Below, in pieces: positions 1,850 to 64,000 of a DNA stretch of 64,000 nt. The notes under the pieces are model-generated. The model ran no database searches. It was not told the origin of the DNA and saw nothing but the letters and a program-made list of their open reading frames with translations. Positions within the stretch are counted from its first letter, which is position 1. Every line of letters begins with the position of its first letter. The stretch spans positions 1 to 64,000 of the forward strand of contig NZ_LXYE02000019.1 in NCBI RefSeq assembly GCF_001659685.2. The letters run 5' to 3'. The stretch is from Labilibacter marinus (GTDB taxonomy: Bacteria; Bacteroidota; Bacteroidia; Bacteroidales; Marinilabiliaceae). The translations under genes and the position numbers were made by a program.

Positions 1850-4234
1850 TTATTTTAAAATTCTATTGCCATAAAGGCGAGTACTAAATGTGGTAAAAGC
1901 CACTACCGTTATAGAGCTTACCGGCATTAGTATGGCCGCAATAACGGGAGATAAATTTCCGCTGATGGCAAAGCCAAGCCCAATGGCGTTATAGAAGAAC
2001 GAAATTAAAAAACTTTGCTTAACTATGCTTAAACTTTTCTGCGCAAAACGAATATACTGATGAAACTTCTCGAATTTAGCCGCTTCGAGTATAGCATCGC
2101 CAGCTGGTGAAAAGTGGTAAATATCATCGGCCAAGGAAAGCGCCACATCACTACTCATAAAAGCTCCTGAATCATTTAAACCATCACCCGTCATTAAAAC
2201 CGACCGCCCTTCTTGCTGAAGTTTGCTAACAAAATTCATTTTATCCTGCGGCTTCTGGTTAAAATGCAACTTGTCCTCATCCATCATCTGAGCCAAATTC
2301 TCCTTTTCCGAATCATTATCGCCAGAAAGCATATAAAGCGTATACTTCAGCTTTAGCTTACCCAATACTTTTTCAATTCCAGTACGATACTTATTCCCGA
2401 TCTTATAATAACCTTTCAGCTCTCCATTGATAGAGATATAAACCGCAGAAGCCTGTGCACTATTTTTCTCACCTGCATTATCAGCTACATATTCCAAGGC
2501 TCCCAAACGAACCGCTACATCATTTACTTTGGCAAACACACCTCTTCCTGCAACCTCAGTATAAGCCTTCGTTTCCAGCGTGTTAATATCCTGATAAAAA
2601 GAACTAATAGCATTGCTTAAAGGGTGTGTGGACTGCTTTGCCAACGAAACGACCATCTTCAACTCCTCATCGGATAATGGTTTTCCATGAAACTCCACAT
2701 TACTTTCTTCTGGCCGCGTTAAGGTGCCCGTTTTATCAAATACAATGGTATCAATATGCGTTAGTCGCTCAATAACTTCAGTATTTTTAATGTACAAGCC
2801 CTTCTCTCCAAAAATACGCATGGAACTCCCAAAAGTAAACGGAATAGAAAGCGCCAAAGCACAAGGACAAGCTACAATAAGCACCGAGGTGAGCACCATA
2901 AGGGCAGCCTTAAAACTATCGATATAAAACCAGGTAGCAAACCCTGCAATGGCAATAATAATAACGGCCAAAGTAAATTTACCACTTATTTTATCCACCA
3001 GCGAGGTTAAAGACTTTGAGTTGACAGGTCCATTCTCGCTTTGGTTCCATAACTGAGTCAGGTGACTTTGAGCTACTTCTTTATTCACCTTAATGGTTAT
3101 CGCACCACCCGTCTGCACACCGCCTGCATAAAGGAAGTCATCTTTCTTTTTGAGCACAGGAGCAGATTCGCCCGTCACAAAACTATAATCAACCAGTGCA
3201 TCTCCTTCAACCAGAATAGAGTCGGCAGGTATTAATTCTTTATTTCGTATCAATAGATAATCACCCTCTTTCACTTCTTCGAGCAGCACACTTTCCTCTT
3301 GTCCGTTTAAGCGCGTAACAGCTACTGGAAAATATGATTTATAATCTCTATCAAAAGCCAAGGCCTGATAGGTTTTGCTCTGATACCAGCGCCCCAGTAA
3401 CAAGAAAAACAAGAAACCAGAAAGACTATCGGAATAGCCAGGACCAATGCCCATCAGCACTTCGTAACTGGTAACAAAGAACAAGGCCAAGATGCCTATG
3501 GCAATGGGCAAATCAATATTCACGATCCCTTTAACCAGATTCTTCGAAGCAGAGATCAAGTAATCGCATCCGCTATAGAACACCAACGGGAAAGTGAGCA
3601 CATACATCAGGTAGTACAAAAAGGAACCAAAGGAACCTTCAATAGCTTCGCCGTTAAAATATTCTGGCAAACTATACAACATCACATTTCCGAATACAAA
3701 GCCTGCAACACCAATCTTATATAACAGCGCTTTGTTTTGCGATTTCTTCTCGCCTTTATTATCTAAATCTTGTAAAGATACGTCAGGCACATAATGTATA
3801 GAAACTAAGAGCTCTACCAATTCCCGAAGCGAAATTTCCTTTGTATTGAAAGTGACCGTATATTTTTTCTGCACAAAATTAACGGCCGCATGTTTAACGC
3901 CCTTACTCAATTTATTCAGATGCTCGAGCAACCAAATACATGAGGCGCAATGGATAGATGGTATATATAAAGTGACTTTAGCAATGTCATTATCAAAAAA
4001 CTCATATAGCTTTTCTTTGACATCCTCTTTATCGAGATAAGCGTATTTGCTGAGATGTGGTGCATCATTTAAACGAATTCCGGGCTGCTGCTGAAACTCA
4101 TAATACTGCTGCATCTGGCTATCATTAAGCAATTGATATACCGACTTACACCCGTTGCAGCAGAACTTCTTCTCCTCCCACACAATTGGGCTCTTGCCGC
4201 AATCAGCTCCGCAATGCACACACTTATTATCCAT
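1850..4234 (-). CDS. ccoI: CcoI/FixI-type copper-exporting P-type ATPase
   Basis: This P1B-type ATPase of 794 residues delivers copper across the membrane for assembly of the cbb3 oxidase. In order it shows a cysteine-rich N-terminal metal-binding region (Cys 5, 8, 12, 25, 26, 29) typical of the FixI subgroup, a heavy-metal-associated domain with CASC at 96-99, membrane helices, the TGES actuator motif near 354, the ion-path CPC at 456-458, the phosphorylation site DKTGT at 500-504, and the hinge motif GDGLND in the last quarter. It lies at the 3' end of the cco cluster, downstream of ccoG, ccoH and the SafE-like gene, which fixes its role better than sequence alone. A general Cu(I) export role is the alternative. 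Confidence 0.93.
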   Translation of the reverse strand: MDNKCVHCGADCGKSPIVWEEKKFCCNGCKSVYQLLNDSQMQQYYEFQQQPGIRLNDAPHLSKYAYLDKEDVKEKLYEFFDNDIAKVTLYIPSIHCASCIWLLEHLNKLSKGVKHAAVNFVQKKYTVTFNTKEISLRELVELLVSIHYVPDVSLQDLDNKGEKKSQNKALLYKIGVAGFVFGNVMLYSLPEYFNGEAIEGSFGSFLYYLMYVLTFPLVFYSGCDYLISASKNLVKGIVNIDLPIAIGILALFFVTSYEVLMGIGPGYSDSLSGFLFFLLLGRWYQSKTYQALAFDRDYKSYFPVAVTRLNGQEESVLLEEVKEGDYLLIRNKELIPADSILVEGDALVDYSFVTGESAPVLKKKDDFLYAGGVQTGGAITIKVNKEVAQSHLTQLWNQSENGPVNSKSLTSLVDKISGKFTLAVIIIAIAGFATWFYIDSFKAALMVLTSVLIVACPCALALSIPFTFGSSMRIFGEKGLYIKNTEVIERLTHIDTIVFDKTGTLTRPEESNVEFHGKPLSDEELKMVVSLAKQSTHPLSNAISSFYQDINTLETKAYTEVAGRGVFAKVNDVAVRLGALEYVADNAGEKNSAQASAVYISINGELKGYYKIGNKYRTGIEKVLGKLKLKYTLYMLSGDNDSEKENLAQMMDEDKLHFNQKPQDKMNFVSKLQQEGRSVLMTGDGLNDSGAFMSSDVALSLADDIYHFSPAGDAILEAAKFEKFHQYIRFAQKSLSIVKQSFLISFFYNAIGLGFAISGNLSPVIAAILMPVSSITVVAFTTFSTRLYGNRILK

Positions 4235-4365: not shown

Positions 4366-5121
4366 CTAATCATCATCCTCGGCATGACAGCAGGATTTTT
4401 TAACGGCCTCACTGGCATCTTCTTGCACTTTCTCCATATGAATTTGAGGGTTCAATTTCTTTTCTGGCGGACTTAAATACGGAATACCTAAACTCAATCC
4501 GCGCAATATAAAAATGATACCAATAATTACCACTAAAACAGGAATCACTTTATTTATCTTTTCACGAATTGCAATACTCACCATATTTCCGAGCATAGAT
4601 ATAGCCAACATCATAGGCAGCGTTCCTAAACCAAACAATATCATAAACAGGGTTCCCGTCAATACATCTCCCGTTCCTATTGCGCCTGCTATAGCCAGAT
4701 AAACCAAACCACAAGGTAACAAACCGTTCAGTAAACCAATAAAAAACAGACGACCAAAGGACTTCTTTACAAACAACTTTTGAATGCCTTTTCGTACCAT
4801 ACCAGCAATAGGAATATTACCTGTATTCACATTCTTAAATACGGATGGTATCAACACCGAGATAATCATGAGTGCTCCCATAATTACTGAAACCCATTGT
4901 TGAAACCCCACCAAAGACAAGCCTTGACCAATCATTCCAAAAATAGCTCCCATAATACCATAAGTGATAGTACGCCCCACATTATACATAACACCACCGA
5001 AAGCTTTCGTTCCAGCACCCTTACCATACAGGGGCAAACTTAAAGCAATAGGACCACACATACCTGCACAATGCAAACTACCCATTAGTCCTAAAACAAA
5101 TCCTGAAATGATTATTTCCAT
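4366..5121 (-). CDS. SafE/TauE-like membrane protein of the cbb3 assembly cluster
   Basis: This 251-residue polytopic membrane protein has about six helices. It begins with a conserved motif in the first helix (GSLHCAGMCGPIALSLPL) and carries a second conserved GLLPCGLVY segment near residue 133. This is the sulfite exporter TauE/SafE-like (UreH-type) family, which in many genomes sits between ccoH and ccoI. The C-terminus ends in a cysteine/histidine-bearing acidic tail (KKSCCHAEDDD). The histidine, cysteines and methionine in helix 1 and the tail could bind copper; that is inference. Only 3 nt separate it from ccoH, so it is surely co-transcribed. Transport of sulfite is not supported by the context. 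Confidence 0.8.
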   Translation of the reverse strand: MEIIISGFVLGLMGSLHCAGMCGPIALSLPLYGKGAGTKAFGGVMYNVGRTITYGIMGAIFGMIGQGLSLVGFQQWVSVIMGALMIISVLIPSVFKNVNTGNIPIAGMVRKGIQKLFVKKSFGRLFFIGLLNGLLPCGLVYLAIAGAIGTGDVLTGTLFMILFGLGTLPMMLAISMLGNMVSIAIREKINKVIPVLVVIIGIIFILRGLSLGIPYLSPPEKKLNPQIHMEKVQEDASEAVKKSCCHAEDDD

Positions 5122-5124
5122 TTT

Positions 5125-5565
5125 TTATCTGACTCTAAAATCTTTTGAAACACTGTACTTTTGATTATCCTTAAACCAGGACACAGACACAATATAACGA
5201 CCTAGTACTAATTCACTTTTAGGAATAGTCAATGCTCCTTCACCTTGCTTAATCGTTAATCGCTTATCATCCTTCTCTGCAGATGGACGATAGAAATAGA
5301 CTTCCTTTTCAGTTTTTAAGGAAGCAATAGATGATGGCAAAAGAATCTGCACAGCATCATTCACATTTTTTATCGCAACACTATCTTTAAAAACAGCAGA
5401 GCGCTTATTAATATCTATTTGTTTAGAATATTCTGCCCCTTGCTTATAATAATCCTTTGTTACCAAGTCGTTATTCTCACTAAACGTAAAAACAACAAAG
5501 GATATAATCCAGGTAAAAAAAATGATAAAAAAGATTATTATTCCATGTCCCCAAGTAAACTTCAT
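5125..5565 (-). CDS. ccoH: FixH/CcoH family cbb3 oxidase assembly protein
   Basis: This 146-residue protein has one N-terminal membrane helix (residues about 8-28) and a periplasmic domain, as in FixH/CcoH. It contains the family's conserved segment after the helix (NDLVTKDYYKQGAEY). CcoH is known to be needed for assembly or stability of cbb3-type oxidase. It lies between ccoG (30 nt upstream) and the SafE-like gene (3 nt downstream). The sequence family is weakly conserved, so the call depends on both the FixH-like motif and the neighbourhood. Confidence 0.85.
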   Translation of the reverse strand: MKFTWGHGIIIFFIIFFTWIISFVVFTFSENNDLVTKDYYKQGAEYSKQIDINKRSAVFKDSVAIKNVNDAVQILLPSSIASLKTEKEVYFYRPSAEKDDKRLTIKQGEGALTIPKSELVLGRYIVSVSWFKDNQKYSVSKDFRVR

Positions 5566-5595: not shown

Positions 5596-6954
5596 TTATT
5601 CTGGTTTGGGCGCTATAAAAGTAGCCGCTGTTGTTTCCAACAACTTGCCATCCCAATACAAGCCTAGCTCAACAGGTGCATTCTTCGTTTTAATATCAGA
5701 CTTAGCCTGCTTTAAGATTAACACACCATCAAAGCTACCATTCTCATTTAACTTTATGGGATGTTCCGACAGAAAAAAGGCACTATTATTAGGACGTAGA
5801 AACTTTAGCTCAATATTTTTAAAGCCTTCTGTTTTATTTACCACTTTCAACTGGTAAATATTAGAAATTGTATCTGCACTCGCCTCTTGATACATGGTAC
5901 CTGGCATCCTTAACAAGGAAGCATCCACCGCTGTTCTTCCAGAAATGGCAACAACTAAAGCTACCAGAAGAATAAACAACACACCACTATAGGCATAGGT
6001 TCTTAAGCTCTTAATACTGCTCTTGCCTGTTTCAACACTATAGCTTGATGCAAAGCGAATTAGGCCTTCTGGCTTTTTCATCTTTCGCATAACAATATTA
6101 CACTCATCGATACAAGCCGTACAATTCACACATTCCAACTGAGTACCGTTTCTAATATCAATACCCGTAGGACAGACAGAAACACAACCACCACAATCTA
6201 CACAGTCACCTTTTATCCTTCGGGGCTCCCCTCGTTTATAATCATAGGCTACTGTAATCGATTTTGCATCGAGCAATACACCTTGCATTCTTCCGTAGGG
6301 GCAAAACAAAGTACAAACACCCTCACGGATGTAGGCATAAATCCAAAAGTAAACTGCAGTAACTACAAACATAGCTGTATACACTTGCCAATACTCATGG
6401 AAAGGGCTCTTCCAAATAATCAACAATCCTTTGGGGCCCGTAAACCACATGATAAATACATTGGTAAAAAACAAAGTAACCAAGAAGTACAGCACATATT
6501 TTATGGCAACAGCAAACCTACTAGGTACTTTTGCTCTACGACCACGCTGATAATTTCCATGAAAAAGATATTCAATTCTTCGATAAATCATTTCCATAAA
6601 AACCGTATGCGGACAAGCCCAACCACACCAAAACCTTCCGAACACAACCGTAAACAGTACCACAAAAATAACAGTAACCGCCATTACAATCGCCATAATA
6701 TCCGTATCCTGTGAATATACTGTTGCTCCAAACAAATGAAATTTACGGTTCACAACATCCAGCAACATAAAAGGCTTACCGCCAATTTTAATGATAGGTG
6801 CCAGAATAAAGAATAATAATAAAAATGAAGCCACCACAGTTCGTCGTGTATACCATTTTCCTTTGGGCTGACGTACTTTAATCCACTTTCTGTTTCCCTG
6901 ATCATCTATCGTATCGGGTCTTTCTCGAAAAGTTTTTTGTTTTTGAGTTGCCAT
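5596..6954 (-). CDS. ccoG: CcoG/FixG/RdxA polyferredoxin, cbb3 oxidase accessory protein
   Basis: This 452-residue membrane iron-sulfur protein has the CcoG order of parts. An N-terminal helix (about 40-57) is followed by a second helix and a cysteine pair in FWCGWACPHT (Cys 110 and 114). Further helices precede two ferredoxin-type cluster sites (CVDCGGCVSVCP and CVNCTACIDEC) in the middle of the protein. A last helix near 320 and a periplasmic Ig-like C-terminal domain complete it. CcoG is implicated in cupric reductase activity during cbb3 biogenesis. It starts the assembly part of the cluster after an 11-bp hairpin that separates it from ccoP. Confidence 0.93.
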   Translation of the reverse strand: MATQKQKTFRERPDTIDDQGNRKWIKVRQPKGKWYTRRTVVASFLLLFFILAPIIKIGGKPFMLLDVVNRKFHLFGATVYSQDTDIMAIVMAVTVIFVVLFTVVFGRFWCGWACPHTVFMEMIYRRIEYLFHGNYQRGRRAKVPSRFAVAIKYVLYFLVTLFFTNVFIMWFTGPKGLLIIWKSPFHEYWQVYTAMFVVTAVYFWIYAYIREGVCTLFCPYGRMQGVLLDAKSITVAYDYKRGEPRRIKGDCVDCGGCVSVCPTGIDIRNGTQLECVNCTACIDECNIVMRKMKKPEGLIRFASSYSVETGKSSIKSLRTYAYSGVLFILLVALVVAISGRTAVDASLLRMPGTMYQEASADTISNIYQLKVVNKTEGFKNIELKFLRPNNSAFFLSEHPIKLNENGSFDGVLILKQAKSDIKTKNAPVELGLYWDGKLLETTAATFIAPKPE

Positions 6955-7045: not shown

Positions 7046-7630
7046 CTACTTACATTCTTCTCCCTGAGGATCTTTAGGATTAGCAGGACTAGAGCCAACC
7101 AAATCATTTAAAATATAAACAGCTACATACTTAATCTCTTCTTCCGTCATCATACTTTTGTATGGAGTCATACCTTTAGTTGGCCTACCGTTGGCTATTA
7201 CACCCATTACATCTTCCACACTGCAGCCATTAATCCAATGATTATCCGTTAAGTTAGGACCAATAGTATTCCCTTCTCCACTAGCTCCATGACAAGCCAT
7301 ACAGGCATTTTTTACGTACAACTCTTTACCTTGAGCAATCATCTCTGCTTCACTCAACTCTGGCATATTAGCTTTATTAGCGGCCTTTAACTTGGCCTGC
7401 TCTGCTTCAAACTCCGCTACCGACTTAGCATACTCACTAGCCTGATCGCGCTCGTTACCCGGATAACCAAAGTAATGCACCACATAAAACAAGGAGAACC
7501 CAATAGTTACTAAAAACAATAAGGTAATCCAGAATGGAGCTGGGTTATTTTGCTCCTTTATTCCATCATAGTCATGCGATTCGATATCGTCATGAAAATC
7601 TTTAGGGTCTTTATTATTATCTTGACTCAT
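7046..7630 (-). CDS. ccoP: cbb3 oxidase subunit III, monoheme CcoP
   Basis: This 194-residue subunit has an N-terminal segment DYDGIKEQNNP (the family's D-GI-E-NNP box, residues 20-30), one membrane helix (about 33-54), and a single cytochrome c domain with CMACH at 110-114 and a likely axial methionine at 154 (RPTKGM). Classical proteobacterial CcoP is about 300 residues with two c-type hemes; here the second heme domain is absent. It passes electrons toward the CcoO heme. It lies 2 nt downstream of ccoQ and is the last structural gene before a hairpin. Confidence 0.92.
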   Translation of the reverse strand: MSQDNNKDPKDFHDDIESHDYDGIKEQNNPAPFWITLLFLVTIGFSLFYVVHYFGYPGNERDQASEYAKSVAEFEAEQAKLKAANKANMPELSEAEMIAQGKELYVKNACMACHGASGEGNTIGPNLTDNHWINGCSVEDVMGVIANGRPTKGMTPYKSMMTEEEIKYVAVYILNDLVGSSPANPKDPQGEECK

Positions 7631-7632
7631 GC

Positions 7633-7836
7633 CTATTCGTTTTGATTATTTTGTTGATTTTCAGTTGCCATATCATCTTCTAATATGGCATTTTTATATT
7701 GAACGAAATTTGACTTTGGCGTTCGTATTGTTTTATATACGATAACAATGAACAAGGCTATAAAAATCGATATTCCGATAATATAATACCATTGTATTCC
7801 ATCTACATCTTTTAAAACTTCACTTACAAATCCCAT
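7633..7836 (-). CDS. ccoQ: CcoQ-like small subunit of cbb3 oxidase
   Basis: This 67-residue protein has one membrane helix (about 16-35) followed by a short polar tail. Length, topology and its exact place between the ccoNO fusion (3 nt) and ccoP (2 nt) match CcoQ/FixQ. CcoQ stabilises the interaction of CcoP with the core complex. Sequence similarity in this family is slight, so the assignment is mostly from topology and position. Confidence 0.75.
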   Translation of the reverse strand: MGFVSEVLKDVDGIQWYYIIGISIFIALFIVIVYKTIRTPKSNFVQYKNAILEDDMATENQQNNQNE

Positions 7837-7839
7837 ATC

Positions 7840-9999
7840 TTACTTTTCTTCTTCAACACCTGAAATATCTCTACCTAGCTTATGTAAATATGCAATTATC
7901 GCAACCACCTCTTTCGTTGGCTCAACCTCAATGCCCGATGCCTTAAGGTCATTTACAATTTTATTAGCCTGCTTCATATAGTCCTCAACAGCCACCTCTT
8001 CGTAACCATCTCTATAAGGCACTCCCAAGGTTTTCATCACTTTAATTTTCTTAGGAATCAAATCCATCACCACCTCATTTTCCGCAAACCACGGGTAAGC
8101 GGGCATAATAGATTGCGGATTCATTTCTAATGGCTTCATAAAATGGTTATAATGCCAAACTGCTGTTTTATAAGTAGTAGATCCTCCAATAGAAACATCA
8201 CCTAAATAACCTGCTCTAGCTAAATCTGGACCCGTTCTGCGCGAACCCCATTGGAATGGATGATCATAAACAAACTCACCAATTTTTGAATACTCGCCAT
8301 AACGGTCTGTTTCCCATCGTAACGGACGAATTTGTTGCGAGTGGCAATTATAGCAACCATTCGAAATATAAATATCGCGCCCAGCCAATTCTAATGGCGT
8401 ATATGGCGTAACCGTAGATATTTTAGGAATATTAGACTCAACCGTCATCAAAGGAATAATTTCAACTGCACCACCAATGGCCACCGCAATAAATACAAAC
8501 ACGGCAAAACGAACTCCTCTTCTTTCTAACCATCTATGAACCGTTTCTCCTGCTACATTACGTTTCTTAGGGTTTTCTAGACCTGGAGCTTCAGTTTCCT
8601 CATCGGCAACCATTTCACCAGCCTTCATTGTTTTCATGATGTTATATAAAAACAACACAAAGCCTGCAAAGAACAACACTCCACCTACAATCCTAAAGGC
8701 ATACATAGGTAGTATTTGAATAGTTGTTTCTAAAAAGTTAGGATAAGCTAATGAACCCGTTGGTGTATATTCTTTCAACATTAACCATTGTGTAATGGCT
8801 GCCCAATACAACGGAATAGCAAACATTAAAATACCTAATGTAGCTACCCAAAAATGAGCATTCGCTAGTTTGCTAGAGAATAGCTTTGTTTTAAATAACT
8901 TAGGCACTAACCAATAGAACATACCGAAGATTAATCCTCCGTTCCATCCCATACCTGCAATATGAGTATGAGCCACTGTCCAATCCGTAAAGTGACTGAT
9001 AGAATTTACAGTTTTCAAGGACATCATTGGCCCTTCGAAAGTAGCCATACCGTAGGCAATTAATGCGACTACCATAAACTTCAAGTCCGCTCTATCTCGC
9101 ACTTTATCCCACGCTCCACGCAAGGTCAACAACCCGTTTATCATACCACCCCACGAAGGTGCAATTAGCATGATAGAGAAGGTTACTCCTAAAGCTTGAA
9201 GCCAATCTGGTAAGGCATTATATAACAAGTGATGAGGCCCTGTCCACATGTATAAGAATATCAATGTCCAGAAGTGAATAATGGATAATTGATACGAGTA
9301 AATCGGTCTGTTTGAAGCTTTAGGCAGATAATAATACATCAGCCCTAACCAAGGCGTAGTTAAAAAGAATGCCACTGCATTATGACCATACCACCATTGT
9401 ACCAAAGCATCTTGTGCTCCGGCATAGATAGGATAACTCTTGAATAATGAAACGGGCAACTCAATAGAGTTAACAATATGTAGAACAGCTACCCCTAAAA
9501 AAGTAGCTAGATACCACCAAACGGCTGCATAAATATGCTTCACACGACGCTTGATAATGGTTCCAATCATATTCCAACCAAACAGTACCCAAGATACAGC
9601 GATTAAAATATCAATTGGCCATTCTAATTCAGCATACTCTTTACCGGTTGTAAAACCAAGCAAAAGTGTAACGGCCGCTAGTACAATAATTAACTGCCAG
9701 CTCCAAAAATGAACCTTACTAATTACATCATTAAATAAGCGCGCTTTTAAAACACGCTGTAATGAATAATAAATACCAGCAAACATGGCATTACCAATAA
9801 ATGCAAAAATAACTGCATTGGTATGCACAGGTCTTACCCTTCCAAAGGAAGTATATTCGAGTCCGAGGTTAAAAGCAGGATAAGCTAACTGCAAAGCCGC
9901 TAACAAACCAACAATTAAAGCTACAGCTCCCCAAACTATGGTTGCAATAGTAAAATTTCTTACCGTTGCATTATCGTATTTAAACTTTTGTATCTCCAT
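7840..9999 (-). CDS. ccoNO: Fused CcoN-CcoO cbb3-type cytochrome c oxidase subunits I/II
   Basis: One 719-residue protein joins the catalytic subunit and the monoheme subunit. Residues 1-460 are CcoN with about twelve helices, the low-spin heme ligand region RPVHTNA (His 59), the Cu-B site WYGHNAV (His 206) and the His pair 256-257 (GPHHLL), and THIAGMGWNG near 345. After a charged linker (460-495) a helix leads into CcoO, with its heme c site CYNCH at 549-553 and the conserved IRPLRWETDRYGEYS segment. This complex reduces oxygen with high affinity and pumps protons. Fusion of N and O is common in Bacteroidota. It begins 18 nt after ccoS. Confidence 0.96.
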   Translation of the reverse strand: MEIQKFKYDNATVRNFTIATIVWGAVALIVGLLAALQLAYPAFNLGLEYTSFGRVRPVHTNAVIFAFIGNAMFAGIYYSLQRVLKARLFNDVISKVHFWSWQLIIVLAAVTLLLGFTTGKEYAELEWPIDILIAVSWVLFGWNMIGTIIKRRVKHIYAAVWWYLATFLGVAVLHIVNSIELPVSLFKSYPIYAGAQDALVQWWYGHNAVAFFLTTPWLGLMYYYLPKASNRPIYSYQLSIIHFWTLIFLYMWTGPHHLLYNALPDWLQALGVTFSIMLIAPSWGGMINGLLTLRGAWDKVRDRADLKFMVVALIAYGMATFEGPMMSLKTVNSISHFTDWTVAHTHIAGMGWNGGLIFGMFYWLVPKLFKTKLFSSKLANAHFWVATLGILMFAIPLYWAAITQWLMLKEYTPTGSLAYPNFLETTIQILPMYAFRIVGGVLFFAGFVLFLYNIMKTMKAGEMVADEETEAPGLENPKKRNVAGETVHRWLERRGVRFAVFVFIAVAIGGAVEIIPLMTVESNIPKISTVTPYTPLELAGRDIYISNGCYNCHSQQIRPLRWETDRYGEYSKIGEFVYDHPFQWGSRRTGPDLARAGYLGDVSIGGSTTYKTAVWHYNHFMKPLEMNPQSIMPAYPWFAENEVVMDLIPKKIKVMKTLGVPYRDGYEEVAVEDYMKQANKIVNDLKASGIEVEPTKEVVAIIAYLHKLGRDISGVEEEK

Positions 10000-10017
10000 A
10001 TTTATATGCGATAGGGT

Positions 10018-10215
10018 TTACTTTTTTTCTTTATCACTTACTTGTGTTTTCTCCTCTTTGTTTGTTTCAGACACTTCATCATCATCAAACAAAATACGCA
10101 CTGATGGCGAATAAGTATCTTCGTACTGACCTGACTTAACTGCCCAAATAAACAACACCAAGAAGAAAAGTGCAGCCAGTAAACTTACTCCAACTAATAA
10201 ATAAAGTATGTTCAT
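10018..10215 (-). CDS. ccoS: CcoS cbb3 oxidase assembly protein
   Basis: This 65-residue protein has an N-terminal membrane helix followed by the CcoS signature: FIWAVKSGQYEDTYSPS then VRILFDDDE. CcoS is required for insertion of heme or copper into cbb3 oxidase. Here it comes before the structural genes rather than after ccoI as in many Proteobacteria. It is 13 nt from the upstream cytochrome c gene, which places the quinol module and the oxidase in one transcript. The lysine-rich C-terminal tail is not conserved in the family. Confidence 0.9.
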   Translation of the reverse strand: MNILYLLVGVSLLAALFFLVLFIWAVKSGQYEDTYSPSVRILFDDDEVSETNKEEKTQVSDKEKK

Positions 10216-10228
10216 GACTGCCTATTAA

Positions 10229-11158
10229 TTATATTACTTTTTGGTCTTCAGGTATATCTTCTTTACCTAAAGCGTATATCTTTTTAACTACAAACAATAC
10301 GTAAAAGATAAAAAACCAGACGGCTAAAACAGAACCCGTATATCCAAAGATAATCCACAATGGAGCTTTTTTCACAGTATTCCACATGGCTCTTTCAGCA
10401 TTTAATGCAGGTTTATTGTTAACCGCACCAATCTGTAAGGTCTTTTCTGTTTTTATATCTCCATACAACTCAGTTTCTACTACCTGAGCTATCAACTTAA
10501 CATTACCTATTGAATCACCTGGAATTTCATCATTTAAGATAAAATAAGCTAAACCTGATTTATTAGTTGTTTTACCTTCGCCAATCTTTAGATTACCAAA
10601 ATACCTTTCAACAGCCAAGGTAACCTCCACTCCGCCAACAACACTCTCTTCTCCATTCAGTGTTCCTGTAAGCTTCAGCTTTAAAGCTTTTTTCTCTTCT
10701 TCATAATCTAAGTTCAGACTTAATACAGTTCCTTCAGGAATGTTACTTTCAATCTTTTCTGCCGTTTCCTGAACGTAGGTAGTATTAAAACTACGCACAT
10801 AAGCAATCACATTCCAGATATCAGCCTTGCTTAGAGCACTTTTAAAAGAAGGCATTGTTACACGACCTTCACTAATCTTATAAAATAGCTCACCATCGGT
10901 ATTCAATTGAAACTTCTCACTGGCAGGGTCGTCTGGAGATGGATTTAATAAGGCGTTAAAATTCCCCTTACCTGGAGTTCCATGACATGCAGTACACTTG
11001 CCTGCAAACACATCAGCTCCCGACTTTTGCATGGACTCTGTAAACTCCACCATGCTCAGCTTTTCTTTCTGATCTTGTGGAACTACCCATGTATTTTGCG
11101 CTGTAACATTTAAAACAGCACAAACACAAACTACTACGATTAAATAATACTTGTTCAT
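10229..11158 (-). CDS. Membrane-anchored monoheme cytochrome c
   Basis: This 309-residue protein has a signal peptide (residues 1-20, ending TAQ), a cytochrome c domain with CTACH at 55-59 and a likely axial methionine at 102 (TMPSF), then an Ig-like beta-rich domain (about 140-245). A C-terminal membrane helix near 268-292 anchors it, with a short cytoplasmic tail. It sits 10 nt downstream of the NrfD-type gene and 13 nt upstream of ccoS. The likely role is to carry electrons from the FeS/NrfD quinol oxidoreductase to the cbb3 oxidase; that is inferred from order and topology. I know no established gene name for this architecture. Confidence 0.82.
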   Translation of the reverse strand: MNKYYLIVVVCVCAVLNVTAQNTWVVPQDQKEKLSMVEFTESMQKSGADVFAGKCTACHGTPGKGNFNALLNPSPDDPASEKFQLNTDGELFYKISEGRVTMPSFKSALSKADIWNVIAYVRSFNTTYVQETAEKIESNIPEGTVLSLNLDYEEEKKALKLKLTGTLNGEESVVGGVEVTLAVERYFGNLKIGEGKTTNKSGLAYFILNDEIPGDSIGNVKLIAQVVETELYGDIKTEKTLQIGAVNNKPALNAERAMWNTVKKAPLWIIFGYTGSVLAVWFFIFYVLFVVKKIYALGKEDIPEDQKVI

Positions 11159-11168
11159 TGTTCCTGTT

Positions 11169-12506
11169 TTAAATTATTTTAGTCTTAGTTCCTTCTTCTT
11201 CTTCCGCCATTTCCCAGATTGGAATTACTGGAAATAGTTTAGCTAAAACAGAGATAATCATTAATCCCATTATAATAGAACCAATGGTAACTGCTGTTTC
11301 GATAATGGTTGGTTGATACACTACCCACTCATGAGGCAAATTTTGTACGGGTAAAAAAGGATGCTCCATGGTTGGGATAACAATAATATATCTTTTTAAC
11401 CAAGCACTAACCAATACAAAGAGTGAAATAATAAATAAAGGCAATGGTTTACGGAATGGCTTCCATAACAATACCACCATTGGAATTAATAAACCAAATA
11501 TCTGCGAAAACCAAAACATGATAGCATGTTTACCTAAAAACAATTCATGTATATGAATAGCATCAAACTCTTTCATTTTATAAGCAGGCACCACAAATTC
11601 GTTTAGGTTAAAATAGAAATAGATAACACAAACAAATTCTAATAGCTTACCCATCTTATCAAACAAAGATTCACCTAGGTAATCTCTCAGTTTATAATTG
11701 TTTCGGAAGAAGAATACAGCTATAATTACCGCTGCCATTCCTGTTACAAATGCTCCCGTTAAAAAGTAAGGTCCAAAAATGGTACTATCCCATCCACTAC
11801 GAGAGTTAACTGCCAACAACCAAGATGTTACTGTATGGATTGCAAATGCGGTAGGGATAACCAATATGATTAATAATCTAGTGGCCTTAAATAATAACTT
11901 ATACTGCTTTGGATGATGTGTCCATTTAAACGATAAAATTTCATACAACTTCATCATCCATTTAGGCGCATTCTGCATACGCCCTCTAGCGATAGCTAAA
12001 TCAGGAATTAAAGGCAGCAAATACAACAATGTACTGATGACCAAATAAGTGGTTACCACAGTAACATCCCATAAGATAGGCGATTGAACCCTTCCGTGGA
12101 TAAACACATTGAGCAATCGCTCTGGTCGTCCCATATCAGAAACAATAACCAAACCTGCTACAGCTGCAAACGCAACAGCAATAATTTCCGCTATTCGAGT
12201 AATGGGCTTAATCCAGGTATAACCTAATAAACCAATAACTCCGCTTATTAACATACCCACCAATGCGGTGGCTACAAAAAATACAAAGTTGGCAATATAC
12301 ATACCCCAACTTACCATATCACGCATCCCTGTAACAATCAGCCCTTTTTGGTACTGTATTACATATGCGTAAATACAAGCCAATAAAGCCATGGTTAAAA
12401 AAGACATCCATGTTAAAAACCCAGGACCAAAACCAACGGGTTTAAGGATATCCTTGGCTACTTTATCCAGCTTTTCTTTGTTTATTTTAATATTATGTCC
12501 AGACAT
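11169..12506 (-). CDS. NrfD/PsrC-family quinol-site membrane protein
   Basis: This 445-residue polytopic protein has about ten helices. It contains family features such as SDMGRPERLLNVFIHGRVQS (near 124-143) followed by PILWDVTVVTTYL, parallel to the HMGR and [14 protein letters not shown] segments of the ActC protein at the right edge. NrfD-type subunits (NrfD, PsrC, HybB, ActC/ActF) bind menaquinol and pass electrons to an attached periplasmic iron-sulfur subunit. Its partner is the FeS protein encoded 16 nt upstream. With the cytochrome c gene 10 nt downstream it forms a three-part module feeding the cbb3 oxidase. A homologous hydrogenase or polysulfide reductase role is less likely because no such catalytic subunit is near. 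Confidence 0.88.
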   Translation of the reverse strand: MSGHNIKINKEKLDKVAKDILKPVGFGPGFLTWMSFLTMALLACIYAYVIQYQKGLIVTGMRDMVSWGMYIANFVFFVATALVGMLISGVIGLLGYTWIKPITRIAEIIAVAFAAVAGLVIVSDMGRPERLLNVFIHGRVQSPILWDVTVVTTYLVISTLLYLLPLIPDLAIARGRMQNAPKWMMKLYEILSFKWTHHPKQYKLLFKATRLLIILVIPTAFAIHTVTSWLLAVNSRSGWDSTIFGPYFLTGAFVTGMAAVIIAVFFFRNNYKLRDYLGESLFDKMGKLLEFVCVIYFYFNLNEFVVPAYKMKEFDAIHIHELFLGKHAIMFWFSQIFGLLIPMVVLLWKPFRKPLPLFIISLFVLVSAWLKRYIIVIPTMEHPFLPVQNLPHEWVVYQPTIIETAVTIGSIIMGLMIISVLAKLFPVIPIWEMAEEEEGTKTKII

Positions 12507-12522
12507 ATTTTGGGTTTATAGA

Positions 12523-13473
12523 TTAGTGATGATTATCTGGTTTCTCAGGTGCTTCAAAAACTCTGTCTTTTGGAGGCAAATAATAAACGCGAGGTTTTGT
12601 CCCTAGCTCTTCCATCAATCTATAACCTGCATTCTTTTCTAATAAATCGCTTAATACCACCGTTTCGCGTGTTGTTCCATTCGTTACAGCATCTTCATTT
12701 TGGTCTCCAAAATAGAAAACCTCATTAGGACAAGCCCTCACACAGGTTGGCAATTCACCATCGCGTAAGCAATCCGCACTAAACAAACATTTTGAAACCG
12801 TTCCTTTTTTCTGTGGCACGTTCATCTCCACATCATATTCCATTGGCTCCTCTTTATACAGCTGAGCCTGAAATGGTTCTTCCCAATTGAATACCCTTAC
12901 CGAATAAGGACAAGCTGCCATACAGAACCTACATCCGATACAACGTTCGTTATCAATTAAAACAACTCCATCCTGACGTTTAAATGTAGCATCCACAGGA
13001 CAAACAGAAACACAAGGTGGATTATCGCAGTGCATACATGGTTTAGGCATATTGTAAGGTGCCGACTGCGGGTTATCCTGCATTACCAATGTATTAATAT
13101 GGTATTGGTAAGGATGTAAATGATGATGCTCCTGACAACCTTTTACACATTCTCTGGCATTTCTACATTTAGCTAAATCAATAACCATTACCCAACGCTT
13201 ACCTTCAATTCCTATTCTTCCGCGTGTTTGTAATGCATCTGTATCAAGCTTCACTTCCTTCACTTGACTTTTTGGAATTTCTACTAACTTATTATCTGAA
13301 GTTAGTACTTTAACATATTCCGAGCTTGAAGACTCTTCTGATTTAAACCCTGTTGTTGCTGCACCTGTTGTAGCTGCAACTCCGAGCAAGCCCAGCTTTC
13401 GCATAAAATCCCGTCTAGAATTTTTGCCTTGCTGCTTGTCAAGTTCATTCTTTTTAATACCGTCAGAACTCAT
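12523..13473 (-). CDS. Tat-exported four-cluster ferredoxin-like subunit (DmsB/HybA/NrfC type)
   Basis: This 316-residue protein has a twin-arginine signal (SRRDFMRKLGLLG, Arg 20-21) and cysteine groups at 103/109/113, 146/149/154/158, 178/181/184/188 and 229/235/244/248. This is the pattern of NrfC/DmsB/HybA electron-transfer subunits. There are 15 rather than 16 ligand cysteines: the position expected at 106 is alanine, so one cluster is probably [3Fe-4S]. It is the first gene of the respiratory cluster and pairs with the NrfD-type protein. It should carry electrons between menaquinol and the cytochrome c on the periplasmic side. No molybdopterin catalytic subunit is encoded nearby, which sets it apart from DmsB and PsrB systems. 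Confidence 0.9.
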   Translation of the reverse strand: MSSDGIKKNELDKQQGKNSRRDFMRKLGLLGVAATTGAATTGFKSEESSSSEYVKVLTSDNKLVEIPKSQVKEVKLDTDALQTRGRIGIEGKRWVMVIDLAKCRNARECVKGCQEHHHLHPYQYHINTLVMQDNPQSAPYNMPKPCMHCDNPPCVSVCPVDATFKRQDGVVLIDNERCIGCRFCMAACPYSVRVFNWEEPFQAQLYKEEPMEYDVEMNVPQKKGTVSKCLFSADCLRDGELPTCVRACPNEVFYFGDQNEDAVTNGTTRETVVLSDLLEKNAGYRLMEELGTKPRVYYLPPKDRVFEAPEKPDNHH

Positions 13474-60745: not shown

Positions 60746-61324
60746 TTATTCAACACTCTTATTGATTAATCCTTCTCTTATATAGGAAACGATTTTCCAT
60801 CTATCTTCTGGCATAATCTGTCCTTGATGGGCGCCCATAACACCATATCCAACAGAAATCACATGAAACATTTCTCCATCAGGATTGGTTGTCACTTTTT
60901 CAGCTAATAAACTAGCTGGTGGATAAGCATACTTCCCACTTGTATACAAAAAGCCTTTACCGTCGCCTTTATCACCATGACAATGCCAACAATAAATATT
61001 ATACAAGCGCTTACCTTCGATAATAGCTTCAGTATCTTGTGTTTCTCCCATAAATGGGTTTAATAATTTTTCTCCTGCTAGTTTTCTGTTTTCCTCCGTT
61101 TTTTCAAACTGATATGGTATTACACCACGAGGAATACTATTCTCAACAGGTAACAAATTCGTTTTTCCTCCCTCTACAACAGGATTTTCAGAATAGGTTT
61201 CGTAACTCCTAGACTGTTCCATATCTGGGAAGTAACTATAACCAGGCTTATTTCGATCATTATCGCACGAAACTAAAGCAATACTAACAATCAATAAAAG
61301 AATAAGTCTATTTAATATTTTCAT
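60746..61324 (-). CDS. actE: Alternative complex III subunit ActE, monoheme cytochrome c lipoprotein
   Basis: I use the ATG at 61324 (MKILNRLILLLIVSIALVSC); the codon before it in frame is TTG. The 192-residue protein has a lipoprotein signal with the lipobox cysteine in ALVSCD, then a cytochrome c domain with CWHCH near residue 112 and a GAHQGQIMPEDRWKIVSYI C-terminal segment. In ACIII, ActE passes electrons from the quinol-oxidising core to the terminal oxidase. The start overlaps the 3' end of actF by 17 nt, showing translational coupling. Confidence 0.9.
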   Translation of the reverse strand: MKILNRLILLLIVSIALVSCDNDRNKPGYSYFPDMEQSRSYETYSENPVVEGGKTNLLPVENSIPRGVIPYQFEKTEENRKLAGEKLLNPFMGETQDTEAIIEGKRLYNIYCWHCHGDKGDGKGFLYTSGKYAYPPASLLAEKVTTNPDGEMFHVISVGYGVMGAHQGQIMPEDRWKIVSYIREGLINKSVE

Positions 61325-62480
61325 AGTCAAAACTTTCTTTAAAATATGGATGATTTTCTGGAACTAAACTGCCTTTTGTTAATGCCTTAAAAACAAAGAA
61401 TGCAAATATGGCTACGTAAAGAACGCTTAATCCTATTTCGAATAAACCAATATGCGAATGCTCCGCTCCTACTGCTCCTGGCATGATAGCTAAATATAAA
61501 TCTACCCAATGACCAAGAAAAACGATAATTGCAGTATAAAATAACCATGTTGTTTTACGCTTTGTTCCTCTGGCCATTAAAGCAAAGAAAGGCGCTACAA
61601 AACAAACTATTACATTTACATAGAATAAGGTTTCAAAGCCCTTTATGCGAGTTACATAATAAGTGGTTTCTTCTGGAATGTTAGCATACCAGATTAATAA
61701 ATACTGCGATACCCATAGGTAGGCCCAAAAAATACTAAAGCCAAACAAATATTTACCTAAATCATGCAAATGCTCATCATTAACATGATTCATATAACCC
61801 ATTTTTTGAAGCAAAACCAAAAAGATAATGATAACCGCAATAGAATTAACAAACATTCCTATGAAGGTATACCAACCATATAAAGTACTAAACCAATGTG
61901 CATCAATACTCATTAACCAATCCCATGCTGAGGTTGAACTTGTAATGGCAAAAAACACAATAAATATTCCTGAAAAAGTACGTAAGCGATTAAAAAGCTT
62001 TAAGTCGGGGTTTACATCACTCATGAGTGACACTTTGCGGATATTGTGAAATAAGAAAATCCAACCTGCCAAATAAATAAACATTCTCAGGATGAAGAAC
62101 GGCATATTTAAATAGCCTTGTTTCATCTGTAAAATATGATCTAAATGCTCGGTATGTGTCCAATGATATAATGAATGAGCGCCTAATAATATTGGCACAA
62201 TCATAATTGCTCCTAACCAAATATTACTACCAATAGCTTCAGCAATACGCTGAATAGAAGTTTGCCATCCCGACTCAGCAATTAAATGAACTGCGACAAA
62301 GAACCCTGCTCCTAAGGTTAGGCCAATAACCATAAAACCATTCAGTAATATGTTTGCCCAAAACCTATGACCATCTACACCTCCTGTAAAATACCCAAGA
62401 AGGGTCAGAACAAATCCAACAACGGCTGCCGCCATCAACGTGGTCTTTAGCTTTTTAGAAAAGATAAAATCCTTATACAT
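61308..62480 (-). CDS. actF: Alternative complex III subunit ActF (NrfD-like)
   Basis: I start at the ATG at 62480 ([20 protein letters not shown]), which overlaps the actD stop by a few bases; an upstream TTG is less likely. The 390-residue membrane protein has about ten helices. It contains HLIAESGWQTSIQRIAEAIG, GAHSLYHWTHTEHLDHILQM, STSAWDWLMSIDAHWFSTLYG and a later FAYLWVSQYLLIWYANIPEET-type segment (seen as WAYLWVSQYLLIWYANI). This is the ActF member of the NrfD family in alternative complex III, a proton-translocating or quinol-linked membrane subunit. It lies between actD and actE. Confidence 0.92.
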   Translation of the reverse strand: MYKDFIFSKKLKTTLMAAAVVGFVLTLLGYFTGGVDGHRFWANILLNGFMVIGLTLGAGFFVAVHLIAESGWQTSIQRIAEAIGSNIWLGAIMIVPILLGAHSLYHWTHTEHLDHILQMKQGYLNMPFFILRMFIYLAGWIFLFHNIRKVSLMSDVNPDLKLFNRLRTFSGIFIVFFAITSSTSAWDWLMSIDAHWFSTLYGWYTFIGMFVNSIAVIIIFLVLLQKMGYMNHVNDEHLHDLGKYLFGFSIFWAYLWVSQYLLIWYANIPEETTYYVTRIKGFETLFYVNVIVCFVAPFFALMARGTKRKTTWLFYTAIIVFLGHWVDLYLAIMPGAVGAEHSHIGLFEIGLSVLYVAIFAFFVFKALTKGSLVPENHPYFKESFDYENIK

Positions 62481-63012
62481 CTTGCTCTGTTTTTGAAGGT
62501 TCAACTTGTTTTACTTCTTCTGCTCCTGCACTACTCAACACCTCTGTTATATTAGAAACTTCACTTTCATCATTCACCTGAATAGCCACTAAAAAAGCAT
62601 CATCTGTTGTTCTCTCGTCAAAAATGATGACTGGAGCACCAGGACCAATTCCAGAGCGTATTAAAAATCCAAACACCAAGGAAATTGCAGCAAATAGAAC
62701 CGCCAACTCAAAAGTTACTGGAATAAATGAAGGAACTGATAAATATGGTTTACCTCCAAAATTAATAGGCCAACTTTGGGTAAACACCCACATCTGAAAA
62801 TAAAAAGCTAAAACACCACCTAACGCGCCAGCTATAAAACCTAATCGAGGCAGTCTAGACCTTTTTATTTTTAGAACATCATCCAAACCATGCACAGGGA
62901 AAGGAGTTCTTACATCAAAAATAGAAATCCCTTTATCCTGAATCTCTTTAATTCCCGTAAGCAGATCTTTATCATCCCAATAAACACCCGTTATGAATTT
63001 ATTACTTTTCAT
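62473..63012 (-). CDS. actD: Alternative complex III subunit ActD (DUF3341)
   Basis: This 179-residue protein has a cytoplasmic N-terminal half ([20 protein letters not shown]) and two membrane helices (about 57-79 and 95-117). Between the helices lies a periplasmic loop containing [20 protein letters not shown]. This is the DUF3341 pattern of ActD in alternative complex III. Its start overlaps the actC stop by 11 nt and its end overlaps actF, so the whole set is translated as a coupled unit. The C-terminal tail is acidic. Confidence 0.92.
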
Positions 63013-64000
63013 TTCGACCTCCTTTCTTTATGAAGTTTTCACCCGAACTTTTTAATACACTCTTTATCTCAGAAATAGCAATTACTGGGAAAAAACGGAT
63101 AAACAAAAAGAACATGGTAAAGAACAAACCAAAGGTTCCGATATATACACCTACTTCAACCCAAGTTGGCGAATACATAGCCCAACTCGATGGCAGAAAG
63201 TCTCGATGAAGTGAGGTTACAATAATTACAAAACGTTCAAACCACATTCCAATATTCACGAAAATGGATATCACAAAAGTAGCAGCTAAATTTCGTCGTA
63301 TCTTTTTAAACCAGAAGAGCTGAGGTGTAATTACGTTACACGTCATCATTATCCAGTAGGCCCACCAGTAAGGACCAAAGGCTCGATTAACAAAAGCATA
63401 CCGTTCGTAGACGACTCCTGAATACCAAGCCATAAAAAGCTCTGTTAGATAGGCTATACCAACAATTGATCCTGTTGCGATGATTACCTTATTCATCGAT
63501 TCCACATGACCAACGGTAATATAGTTTTCTAGATTCAGCGCTTTTCGTGTGATAATCATTAAGGTTAGTACCATGGCAAACCCTGAAAACACAGCTCCTG
63601 CCACAAAGTAAGGCGGAAATATAGTGGTATGCCAACCAGGTATAACCGAGGTAGCAAAGTCCATACTTACAATAGAGTGTACCGAAAGCACTAATGGCGC
63701 AGCCAAACCTGCCAATATCAAACTCATACTTTCATGGCGCGACCAATGTCTTGCAGAACCAGTCCAACCAAAACTAAGTACTGTATAAATTTGCTTTCTT
63801 ATACCGTCTTTAAGTCTATCTCTAATAGAAGCGATATCTGGAATTAAACCCATATACCAAAAAAGCAAAGAAACTGTAAAGTAGGTAGAAATGGCAAATA
63901 CATCCCATAATAATGGAGAGTTAAAGTTTACCCATAAATCGCGCGTATTTGGGTAAGGAAAAACAAAGAATCCCAATGGTAAACGTCCCATATGTAATAA
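63002..64000 (-). CDS. actC: Alternative complex III subunit ActC (NrfD-like), 5' part outside window
   Basis: This gene enters from the right edge; about 332 C-terminal residues are present and the frame is open through 64000. The ATG at 63991 is internal ([12 protein letters not shown]). ActC holds the menaquinol site. Family signs are the HMGR segment, [35 protein letters not shown], and [20 protein letters not shown]. About seven helices remain here. The missing upstream part should be about 130 residues, preceded by actB and actA if the operon has its usual order. This operon is separate from the NrfD gene at 11.2 kb. Confidence 0.92.

Follow-up and report, generated by a model that had tools for sequence, protein, structure and literature searches.

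The locus and the question it raises

What purpose do three genes, for an iron-sulfur (FeS) protein, an NrfD-type membrane protein and a membrane-anchored monoheme cytochrome c, serve directly in front of the genes for a cbb3 oxidase? The question is raised by a stretch of 64,000 nucleotides (nt) of Labilibacter marinus (hereafter the window; contig NZ_LXYE02000019.1, G000:C11:1-64000 in our numbering of genomes and contigs), which belongs to a genome of 6.03 Mb with Saccharicrinis and Labilibacter as its closest relatives among named organisms. Our answer, to which we assign a probability of roughly 0.8, is that the three genes (hereafter the module) encode a minimal menaquinol:cytochrome c oxidoreductase that replaces alternative complex III (ACIII) with caa3 oxidases in much of its range, and that the lineage of the window has moved it from caa3 to cbb3 while keeping ACIII. 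The genes concerned, with the grounds for their naming, are as follows:

12523..13473, minus strand: FeS protein, periplasmic, DsrO/ActB2/NrfC-like, 316 amino acids (open reading frame (ORF) and several 4Fe-4S family models)
11169..12506, minus strand: NrfD-family membrane protein with quinol site and candidate ion path (ActC nearest among solved structures)
10229..11158, minus strand: monoheme cytochrome c, membrane-anchored (one CxxCH)
10018..10215, minus strand: ccoS/FixS, cbb3 assembly (FixS above the Pfam cut-off)
7840..9999, minus strand: ccoNO, fused cbb3 oxidase subunits I and II (COX1 and FixO above the Pfam cut-offs)
7633..7836, minus strand: small ORF of 67 amino acids in the ccoQ position (named by place only)
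7046..7630, minus strand: ccoP, short monoheme form (FixP_N above the Pfam cut-off)

The gaps between these seven genes, from the FeS gene to ccoP, are 16, 10, 13, 18, 3 and 2 nt, which bears out the first-pass annotation in its reading of one run without a gap above 20 nt. It was also right that the module lacks the molybdopterin-like half of ACIII: judged by ORFs and family matches, the locus holds no molybdopterin catalytic subunit, no Rieske protein and no cytochrome b.

Three proteins apparently suited to quinol oxidation

The NrfD protein (PF03916, 108 bits) has the ActC chains as its best solved relatives, with 195 bits to 6btm chain C. For ActC of R. marinus, the available part of PMC8076601 names a quinol-site serine, an aspartate, a gate arginine and a position in the second transmembrane helix (TMH2). 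In the module protein, S142, D147 and R372 align with the serine, the aspartate and the gate arginine of the ActC encoded in the same genome, and D124 aligns with the protonatable TMH2 position, where ActC carries a His; the offset in numbering between this aligned ActC and that of R. marinus is one that we infer. Residues D124, S142, D147, R104, E107 and E303 are invariant in all 90 aligned rows and R372 is present in 89, the remaining row having a gap, whereas position 124 is Cys or Ser in all six rows of the next, intermediate clade. With its quinol-site residues invariant, the module does look fit to oxidise quinol and to reduce a c-type heme, as had been proposed from the window alone.

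The FeS protein has a Tat-type (twin-arginine translocation) signal, SRRDFM. Its ferredoxin motifs II and III are intact, and the second Cys is replaced by Ala in motif I and by Ser in motif IV. This arrangement prevails among the 75 FeS ORFs (motif I: Ala 71, Val 2, Glu 1, Cys 1; motif IV: Ser 70, Cys 4, unread 1); a Tat-type pattern was found in 64 of them, and all ten rows compared retain complete motifs II and III. FeS proteins of the intermediate clade have Ala in motif I in 15 of 16 cases, yet retain the Cys of motif IV in 15 of 16. Each being short of one Cys, the two altered clusters may be of the [3Fe-4S] type; we take them to be the distal ones, following the cluster assignments for FeS subunits of the complex iron-sulfur molybdoenzyme (CISM) family. 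In the nap- and nar-linked FeS proteins of loci L007, L010 and L123, the Tat signal is seemingly followed by a Cys, which would make them possible lipoproteins; that of the window has no such Cys. A structure model of the FeS protein had a predicted local distance difference test (pLDDT) value of 34.5 and was not used.

The cytochrome consists of a signal peptide, a cytochrome domain at about residues 41-122, a beta-sandwich at about 145-241 and a C-terminal transmembrane helix at 267-298. A single CxxCH occurs in 71 of 74 ORFs and a hydrophobic C-terminal stretch in all 74. The structure model (pLDDT 72.8, predicted template modelling score 0.44) contains cytochrome domain, beta-sandwich and helix, and among PDB entries it is matched best by ActE (6lod_E, E 1e-5, 28% identity over 98 columns), with the small cytochromes c552 and c6 nearly equal.

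In the mechanism that we propose, menaquinol, as the probable donor, would dock on the NrfD protein at its periplasmic face, and its electrons would travel along the FeS clusters of the Tat-exported protein before reaching the one heme that the anchored cytochrome carries. This heme would in turn reduce the terminal enzyme encoded downstream, which in the window means a presumably direct hand-over to cbb3 at its CcoP/CcoO hemes. Protons might be moved by the NrfD protein as well. Where the module is linked to caa3 in genomes without ACIII, it would act in place of complex III.

Distribution of the module and its downstream partners

An NrfD profile was searched over 393 genomes of the order to which the window belongs, Bacteroidales in GTDB as judged by named relatives, with at least 450 bits defining the module clade; in genome counts, the module therefore means a module-clade NrfD, not necessarily all three genes, and presences per genome (module NrfD, ActD, COX1) are lower bounds, because at most 4 candidates per genome were scored (8 for ActD); the genomes are also incomplete. 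Such an NrfD occurs in 81 of the 393 genomes, at 84 loci besides that of the window, and all three genes are present by tblastn at 75 of the 84. Counts are given for the order alone because phylum-wide matches are sparse and divergent: at E <= 1e-110, at least 10 of 395 genomes matched, the window's included, and the nine others are 46-53% identical, with a fragmented cytochrome match and no linked oxidase except a 24% ccoNO match in L161. A plasmid search with NrfD returned 34 records, every one below 60% identity, the ten listed being at 26-32%.

Downstream of the 84 loci lie caa3 (31), cbb3 (9), cbb3 plus caa3 (3), nar (3), nap (2), ACIII (1), no linked partner (26) or a contig end (9); L061 was scored as caa3 on sco alone, and L117 as cbb3 on ccoS and a cut ccoNO. 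Thus, at 43 of the 84 loci the module is followed, in the same orientation, by genes for a haem-copper oxidase. The idea of a self-contained chain with cbb3 accordingly held in part. The tie to the adjacent oxidase stood, as did linkage to cbb3, which occurs at four separate places of the NrfD tree. However, the module does not belong to cbb3 as such, since caa3 is the sole partner at 31 of the 49 loci where a partner was recognised and others have nap or nar; a general dedication to cbb3 was rejected for this reason.

A scan with the NrfD protein yielded nine loci from named organisms (L003-L011). The order seen in the window, FeS-NrfD-cytC-ccoS-ccoNO-ccoQ-ccoP-ccoG-ccoH, is found at four of these, L003-L006, and the three genes also adjoin ccoS upstream in L048, L100, L107, L114, L117, L120 and L121. 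Since L100, L107, L114, L117, L120 and L121 are placed elsewhere on the NrfD tree, the linkage to ccoS goes beyond chance. The cytochrome-ccoS junction is kept at 9-14 nt in L003-L006 and L048; the distance from cytochrome stop to ccoS start is 12 nt in L048, 7 in L107 and L117, -4 in L120, 48 in L114 and 180 in L100. A gene of P-type ATPase size sits between module and ccoS in L086, L090, L093, L094 and L105, and L107 and L120 have an additional, divergent caa3 cluster upstream of the module.

Other partners follow the same three genes. In Marinifilum (L007, L009, L011) and Draconibacterium (L010), these are succeeded by napA-napG-napH-napB, with NapA, NapG and NapH of L007 above the family cut-off. 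In a Marinilabiliales metagenome-assembled genome (L008), a small DoxX-like gene comes next and then sco-coxA-cox3-cox2. The nar partner of L123 comprises narGHJI, two NarK-like genes and a cytochrome with two CxxCH, and its NarG and NarH are above the cut-off. Six genomes carry two modules. The partners differ in five of them: G238 and G370 combine cbb3 with nap, and G002, G170 and G318 combine caa3 with nar, as if every terminal enzyme had its own donor.

The intermediate clade (290-370 bits) served as a control. It was sampled in 16 regions, representing 18 of 37 listed matches, and neither coxA nor ccoNO occurs in any of these 16 regions, some of which have short flanks.

Some further arrangements were observed. 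A cytochrome-like gene lies between the module and narG-type genes in L122, L123 and L128, possibly as a further route for electrons into a Nar-type reductase, and in L125 (3000-13560; G145:C9) an ACIII cluster of the same orientation lies downstream of the module. In the intermediate clade (L132-L147), FeS and NrfD genes are followed by a stretch resembling the module cytochrome, often without CxxCH, with small monoheme cytochromes nearby; 7-heme cytochromes are found nearby in L133, L137, L138, L141 and L142.

Exclusion between the module and ACIII in aa3 genomes

Across the order, ActD (PF11821) is above the cut-off in 63 of 393 genomes and COX1 occurs in 173 (168 above the cut-off), 97 of which have the aa3 type, defined by at least 416 bits to COX1, although aa3 genes cut by contig ends may be missed. 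Of the 79 module genomes first found, 78 have a COX1 match, G016 and G070 weakly. Among the 97 aa3 genomes, 40 have the module only, 41 ACIII only, 12 both and 4 neither (Fisher odds ratio 0.029, p 7e-12). These counts include the truncated NrfD of G243 and G350, whose bits per residue fit the module clade (40/43/10/4 became 40/41/12/4), and leave out a sub-cut-off ActD match with stops in G284. Counted by family, the figures for 47 families are 21, 16, 10 and 0 (p 4e-6), and the 10 families with both include some in which module and ACIII are found in different genomes. The four genomes with neither are a contig that starts inside sco (G136), two with a divergent oxidase of 36-37% identity (G184, G219) and one that is 60% complete (G316).

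The two systems also share a position. Among the 40 module-only genomes, 29 have the module no more than 16 kb from the aa3 gene, irrespective of strand, and ActD is equally close in 22 of the 41 ACIII-only genomes; in genus g100, G283 has actABCD beside coxA and G198 has the module before coxA. No ActD above the cut-off was detected in the 40 module-only genomes, and the ActA of the window's genome matched in one of them only, at 21% identity; the same query recovers ActA, with 35-52% identity, at loci in four ACIII genomes. Flavobacterium johnsoniae without actA is reported to lose its aa3 activity (PMC8552683). Cytochrome b of the bc/b6f type (PF00033 and PF13631) gave no match in 35 of the 40. 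The remaining five match both families, two of them only through proteins of about 900 amino acids; such proteins of about 900-920 amino acids, with a weak PF00033 match, were seen at G020:C89, G231:C57, G347:C31, G067:C186 and G217:C1.

The first-pass annotation had concluded that the module is not a replacement for complex III and had proposed a tabulation across genomes against ACIII and bc1. Its conclusion is sound for the window's own genome, where ACIII and a Rieske/cytochrome b locus are kept, and does not extend to the aa3 genomes of the order, in which module and ACIII are largely exclusive (odds ratio 0.03). Linkage to ccoS was found to recur.

Probable partner switching

The NrfD tree has 97 rows and was built in 'quick' mode with SH-aLRT (Shimodaira-Hasegawa-like approximate likelihood ratio test) support only. 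Its starred branches force at least four changes of the cbb3 label and one each of nap and nar, gains and losses not being distinguished. The clade of the window is nested within caa3-linked sequences, beside G197 and G282, both of which have the module with caa3. In the genome of the window, the aa3 genes (C41) follow the customary order sco-coxA-cox3-cox4-cox2-ctaB and are not accompanied by a module, which is what would be expected if the module had shifted from caa3 to cbb3. Most likely, the module was thus re-assigned from caa3 to cbb3 in this lineage with ACIII retained, the direction of the change being the one suggested by the nesting.

The module within its own genome

The genome of the window, G000, carries ACIII, a locus with Rieske protein, cytochrome b and a multiheme protein, and both aa3 and cbb3 oxidases, so that the module here is an additional entry point; most simply, it is dedicated to cbb3. 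The window itself contains, besides the seven genes:

5596..6954, minus strand: ccoG (FixG-like), cbb3 assembly, downstream of ccoP
5125..5565, minus strand: ccoH (FixH), by family match
4366..5121, minus strand: DsbD_2-type membrane protein, cbb3 biogenesis by place
1850..4234, minus strand: heavy-metal P-type ATPase, probably ccoI-like copper supply, role by place
60746..64000, minus strand: ACIII genes actE, actF, actD and part of actC, running on to C11:68558 with actB and actA

The separate ACIII annotated at 60.7-64 kb is therefore real and extends beyond the window; act gene names other than ActC and ActD were assigned by order and sequence, not by family search. NCBIfam cut-offs were passed by CcoN (604 vs 583 bits), CcoO (224 vs 201) and CcoS (54.8 vs 28.4), whereas the CcoP equivalog TIGR00782 was not reached (83 vs 180 bits) by the short monoheme form. 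The 67-residue ORF in the ccoQ position matched no Pfam or NCBIfam family. Promoter-like sites were about as numerous as in shuffled sequence (32 vs 30.1) and terminator-like sites numbered 10 vs 5.7; neither was used.

The Rieske/cytochrome b locus (L159 5886-7692, G000:C50) encodes a Rieske protein and a cytochrome b, best matched in NCBIfam by ExtP below the cut-off, next to a repeat-bearing multiheme c protein, and constitutes a further bc-like complex in this genome. At L014 7099-13115 (G000:C11, about 187-193 kb), an assimilatory-type nitrate reductase fused to a reductase domain is preceded by molybdenum cofactor-like genes and followed by a nirB-like gene.

A role of the module cytochrome in compensating for a heme lost from CcoP was considered and rejected, since all 31 loci compared encode a CcoP with one CxxCH, whether or not a module is linked. 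The ccoNO proteins of L107, L114, L120, L121, L189, L190, L193, L194 and L197 have 814-864 amino acids and a second CxxCH, the others about 710-760 and one.

Alternative explanations

Several observations weigh against our interpretation. With one ligand lacking in two clusters of the window's FeS protein, an unbroken cluster chain is not certain, and the cytochromes of L124, L129 and L130 (three of 74 ORFs) have no CxxCH. One or two module genes are missing by tblastn at nine of the 84 loci, three of which are at contig ends (L109, L115, L131) and six are not (L053, L057, L070, L084, L097, L112), so that a few genomes counted as having the module, G306 (one of the 40) included, carry NrfD alone. 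In L053, L070 and L097, the module-clade NrfD has neither FeS nor cytochrome neighbours. No association between module and ActD is seen when all 393 genomes are taken together (12 shared; 79 vs 63; p 1.0, before correction for truncated genes), which makes the exclusion specific to aa3 genomes, and even there 12 of 97 have both, the window's own among them. Two of the 31 caa3-linked loci, along with the truncated locus of G243, sit in ACIII genomes. In addition, because CcoP is monoheme regardless of the module, nothing in cbb3 looks adapted to it.

The presence of the Rieske/cytochrome b locus beside ACIII and module in G000 likewise counts against our interpretation and favours another, namely that the module is here a redundant low-oxygen side entrance to cbb3, whose main donor is ACIII or that locus. 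However, the module-ccoS junction is kept at 9-14 nt in L003-L006 and L048, and the genome's aa3 cluster is of the usual order without a module, which leaves ACIII free for aa3. We consider such a secondary role unlikely.

It might also be argued that the three genes form a general NrfCD-type quinol dehydrogenase feeding a periplasmic reductase encoded elsewhere, be it a molybdoenzyme or NrfA, and that the cco neighbourhood is accidental or co-regulatory. Indeed, an NrfCD pair without molybdo-subunit is called a multifunctional quinol:acceptor reductase in the accessible part of PMC3534657, and the 26 of 84 loci without a linked partner, 18 of which have more than 5 kb read downstream, point the same way and away from our interpretation. 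Yet the unlinked molybdoenzyme that the first-pass annotation had named as a possible partner was looked for in G000, and the sole PF01568 (Molydop_binding) protein appears by its make-up to be an assimilatory nitrate reductase, while NrfA lies on another contig with its own four-heme NrfH-like neighbour. Linkage to oxidases, moreover, recurs in separate parts of the tree, and the module excludes ACIII in aa3 genomes. Hence, a general dehydrogenase of this kind seems quite improbable.

A module working in reverse, from cytochrome c to quinone, and sharing the operon only through a common low-oxygen response, has a precedent in Qrc, an NrfD complex that carries electrons in this direction (PMC8076601, available part), but is very hard to reconcile with recognised partners that are terminal reductases, except for one ACIII cluster, and with 35 of 40 module-only aa3 genomes that have no other quinol:cytochrome c enzyme among the families searched.

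Relation to known systems

The minimal oxidoreductase that we propose resembles ACIII in several respects. Its NrfD subunit is closest to ActC and has the quinol-site residues of that subunit, its FeS subunit resembles the C-terminal part of ActB, the model of its monoheme cytochrome has ActE as top match, if only slightly ahead of small cytochromes c, and at caa3-linked loci it takes the ACIII position ahead of the oxidase genes. However, Asp replaces the ActC His in TMH2, the module locus is without the multiheme cytochrome ActA, ActD and the second NrfD-like subunit ActF, and the FeS protein consists of ferredoxin domains only, without the molybdopterin-oxidoreductase-like half of ActB. Motif III, in which the genome's own ActB has Thr for the second Cys, is intact in the module, whereas motifs I and IV have one Cys fewer each. 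Most likely, then, the module works like ACIII and yet is no member of it by the features tested.

With DsrMKJOP it shares the best NCBIfam matches (DsrO for the FeS protein, DsrP for NrfD) and, according to the available part of PMC8076601, the Asp of DsrP at the TMH2 quinol position. Nonetheless, both matches are below the curated cut-offs (172 vs 200 and 140.5 vs 350 bits), no DsrMKJ-like gene was recognised at the module locus, and the module cytochrome is monoheme and anchored. NrfBCD is also composed of an FeS protein, an NrfD protein and a cytochrome c that reduces a terminal enzyme, but its NrfB is pentaheme (PMC8076601, same part) and its partner is NrfA, which in G000 is unlinked; the module FeS protein reaches 104.8 bits against a cut-off of 377.6 for NrfC. 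Cytochrome bc1/b6f differs in its Rieske protein and cytochrome b, and CISM molybdoenzyme complexes differ in their molybdopterin catalytic subunit.

The nearest published counterparts lack a molybdo-subunit as well. In cable bacteria, a TMH1-DsrOhPh-tetrahaem locus has been discussed speculatively as a 'candidate alternative complex III' (PMC13047784); it shares with the module a DsrOP-like pair, a cytochrome c and the proposed role, whereas its cytochrome is tetrahaem, and the part of that paper available to us mentions neither oxidase linkage nor exclusion of ACIII. FeS-NrfD modules of Melioribacter (PMC3534657) and MBNT15 (PMC9386147) are, from the accessible portions of these papers, likewise quinol-oxidising pairs with cytochromes c, but with multiheme cytochromes discussed for Fe(III) reduction. 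FeS-NrfD-cytochrome modules of similar kind have therefore already been published, and the present module is a variant of them; a description of the FeS-NrfD-monoheme cytochrome form was not found in searches of open-licence literature and may exist elsewhere. We lean towards placing it next to bc and ACIII as a third class of quinol:cytochrome c oxidoreductase: a portable three-gene unit with two three-Cys distal FeS clusters that would suffice to replace complex III in many of the order's aerobic or facultative members and that is re-plugged among caa3, cbb3, Nap and Nar in the course of evolution.

Implications

In the 35 of 40 module-only aa3 genomes in which no bc/b6f-type cytochrome b was detected, the module would close a gap in the respiratory chain. 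If this is true, it would be a natural minimal ACIII, in which an FeS protein, an NrfD protein and one heme c are enough to link menaquinol to an oxidase. The roles of ActA, of the molybdopterin-like half of ActB, of ActD and of ActF would thereby become testable by comparison or swapping.

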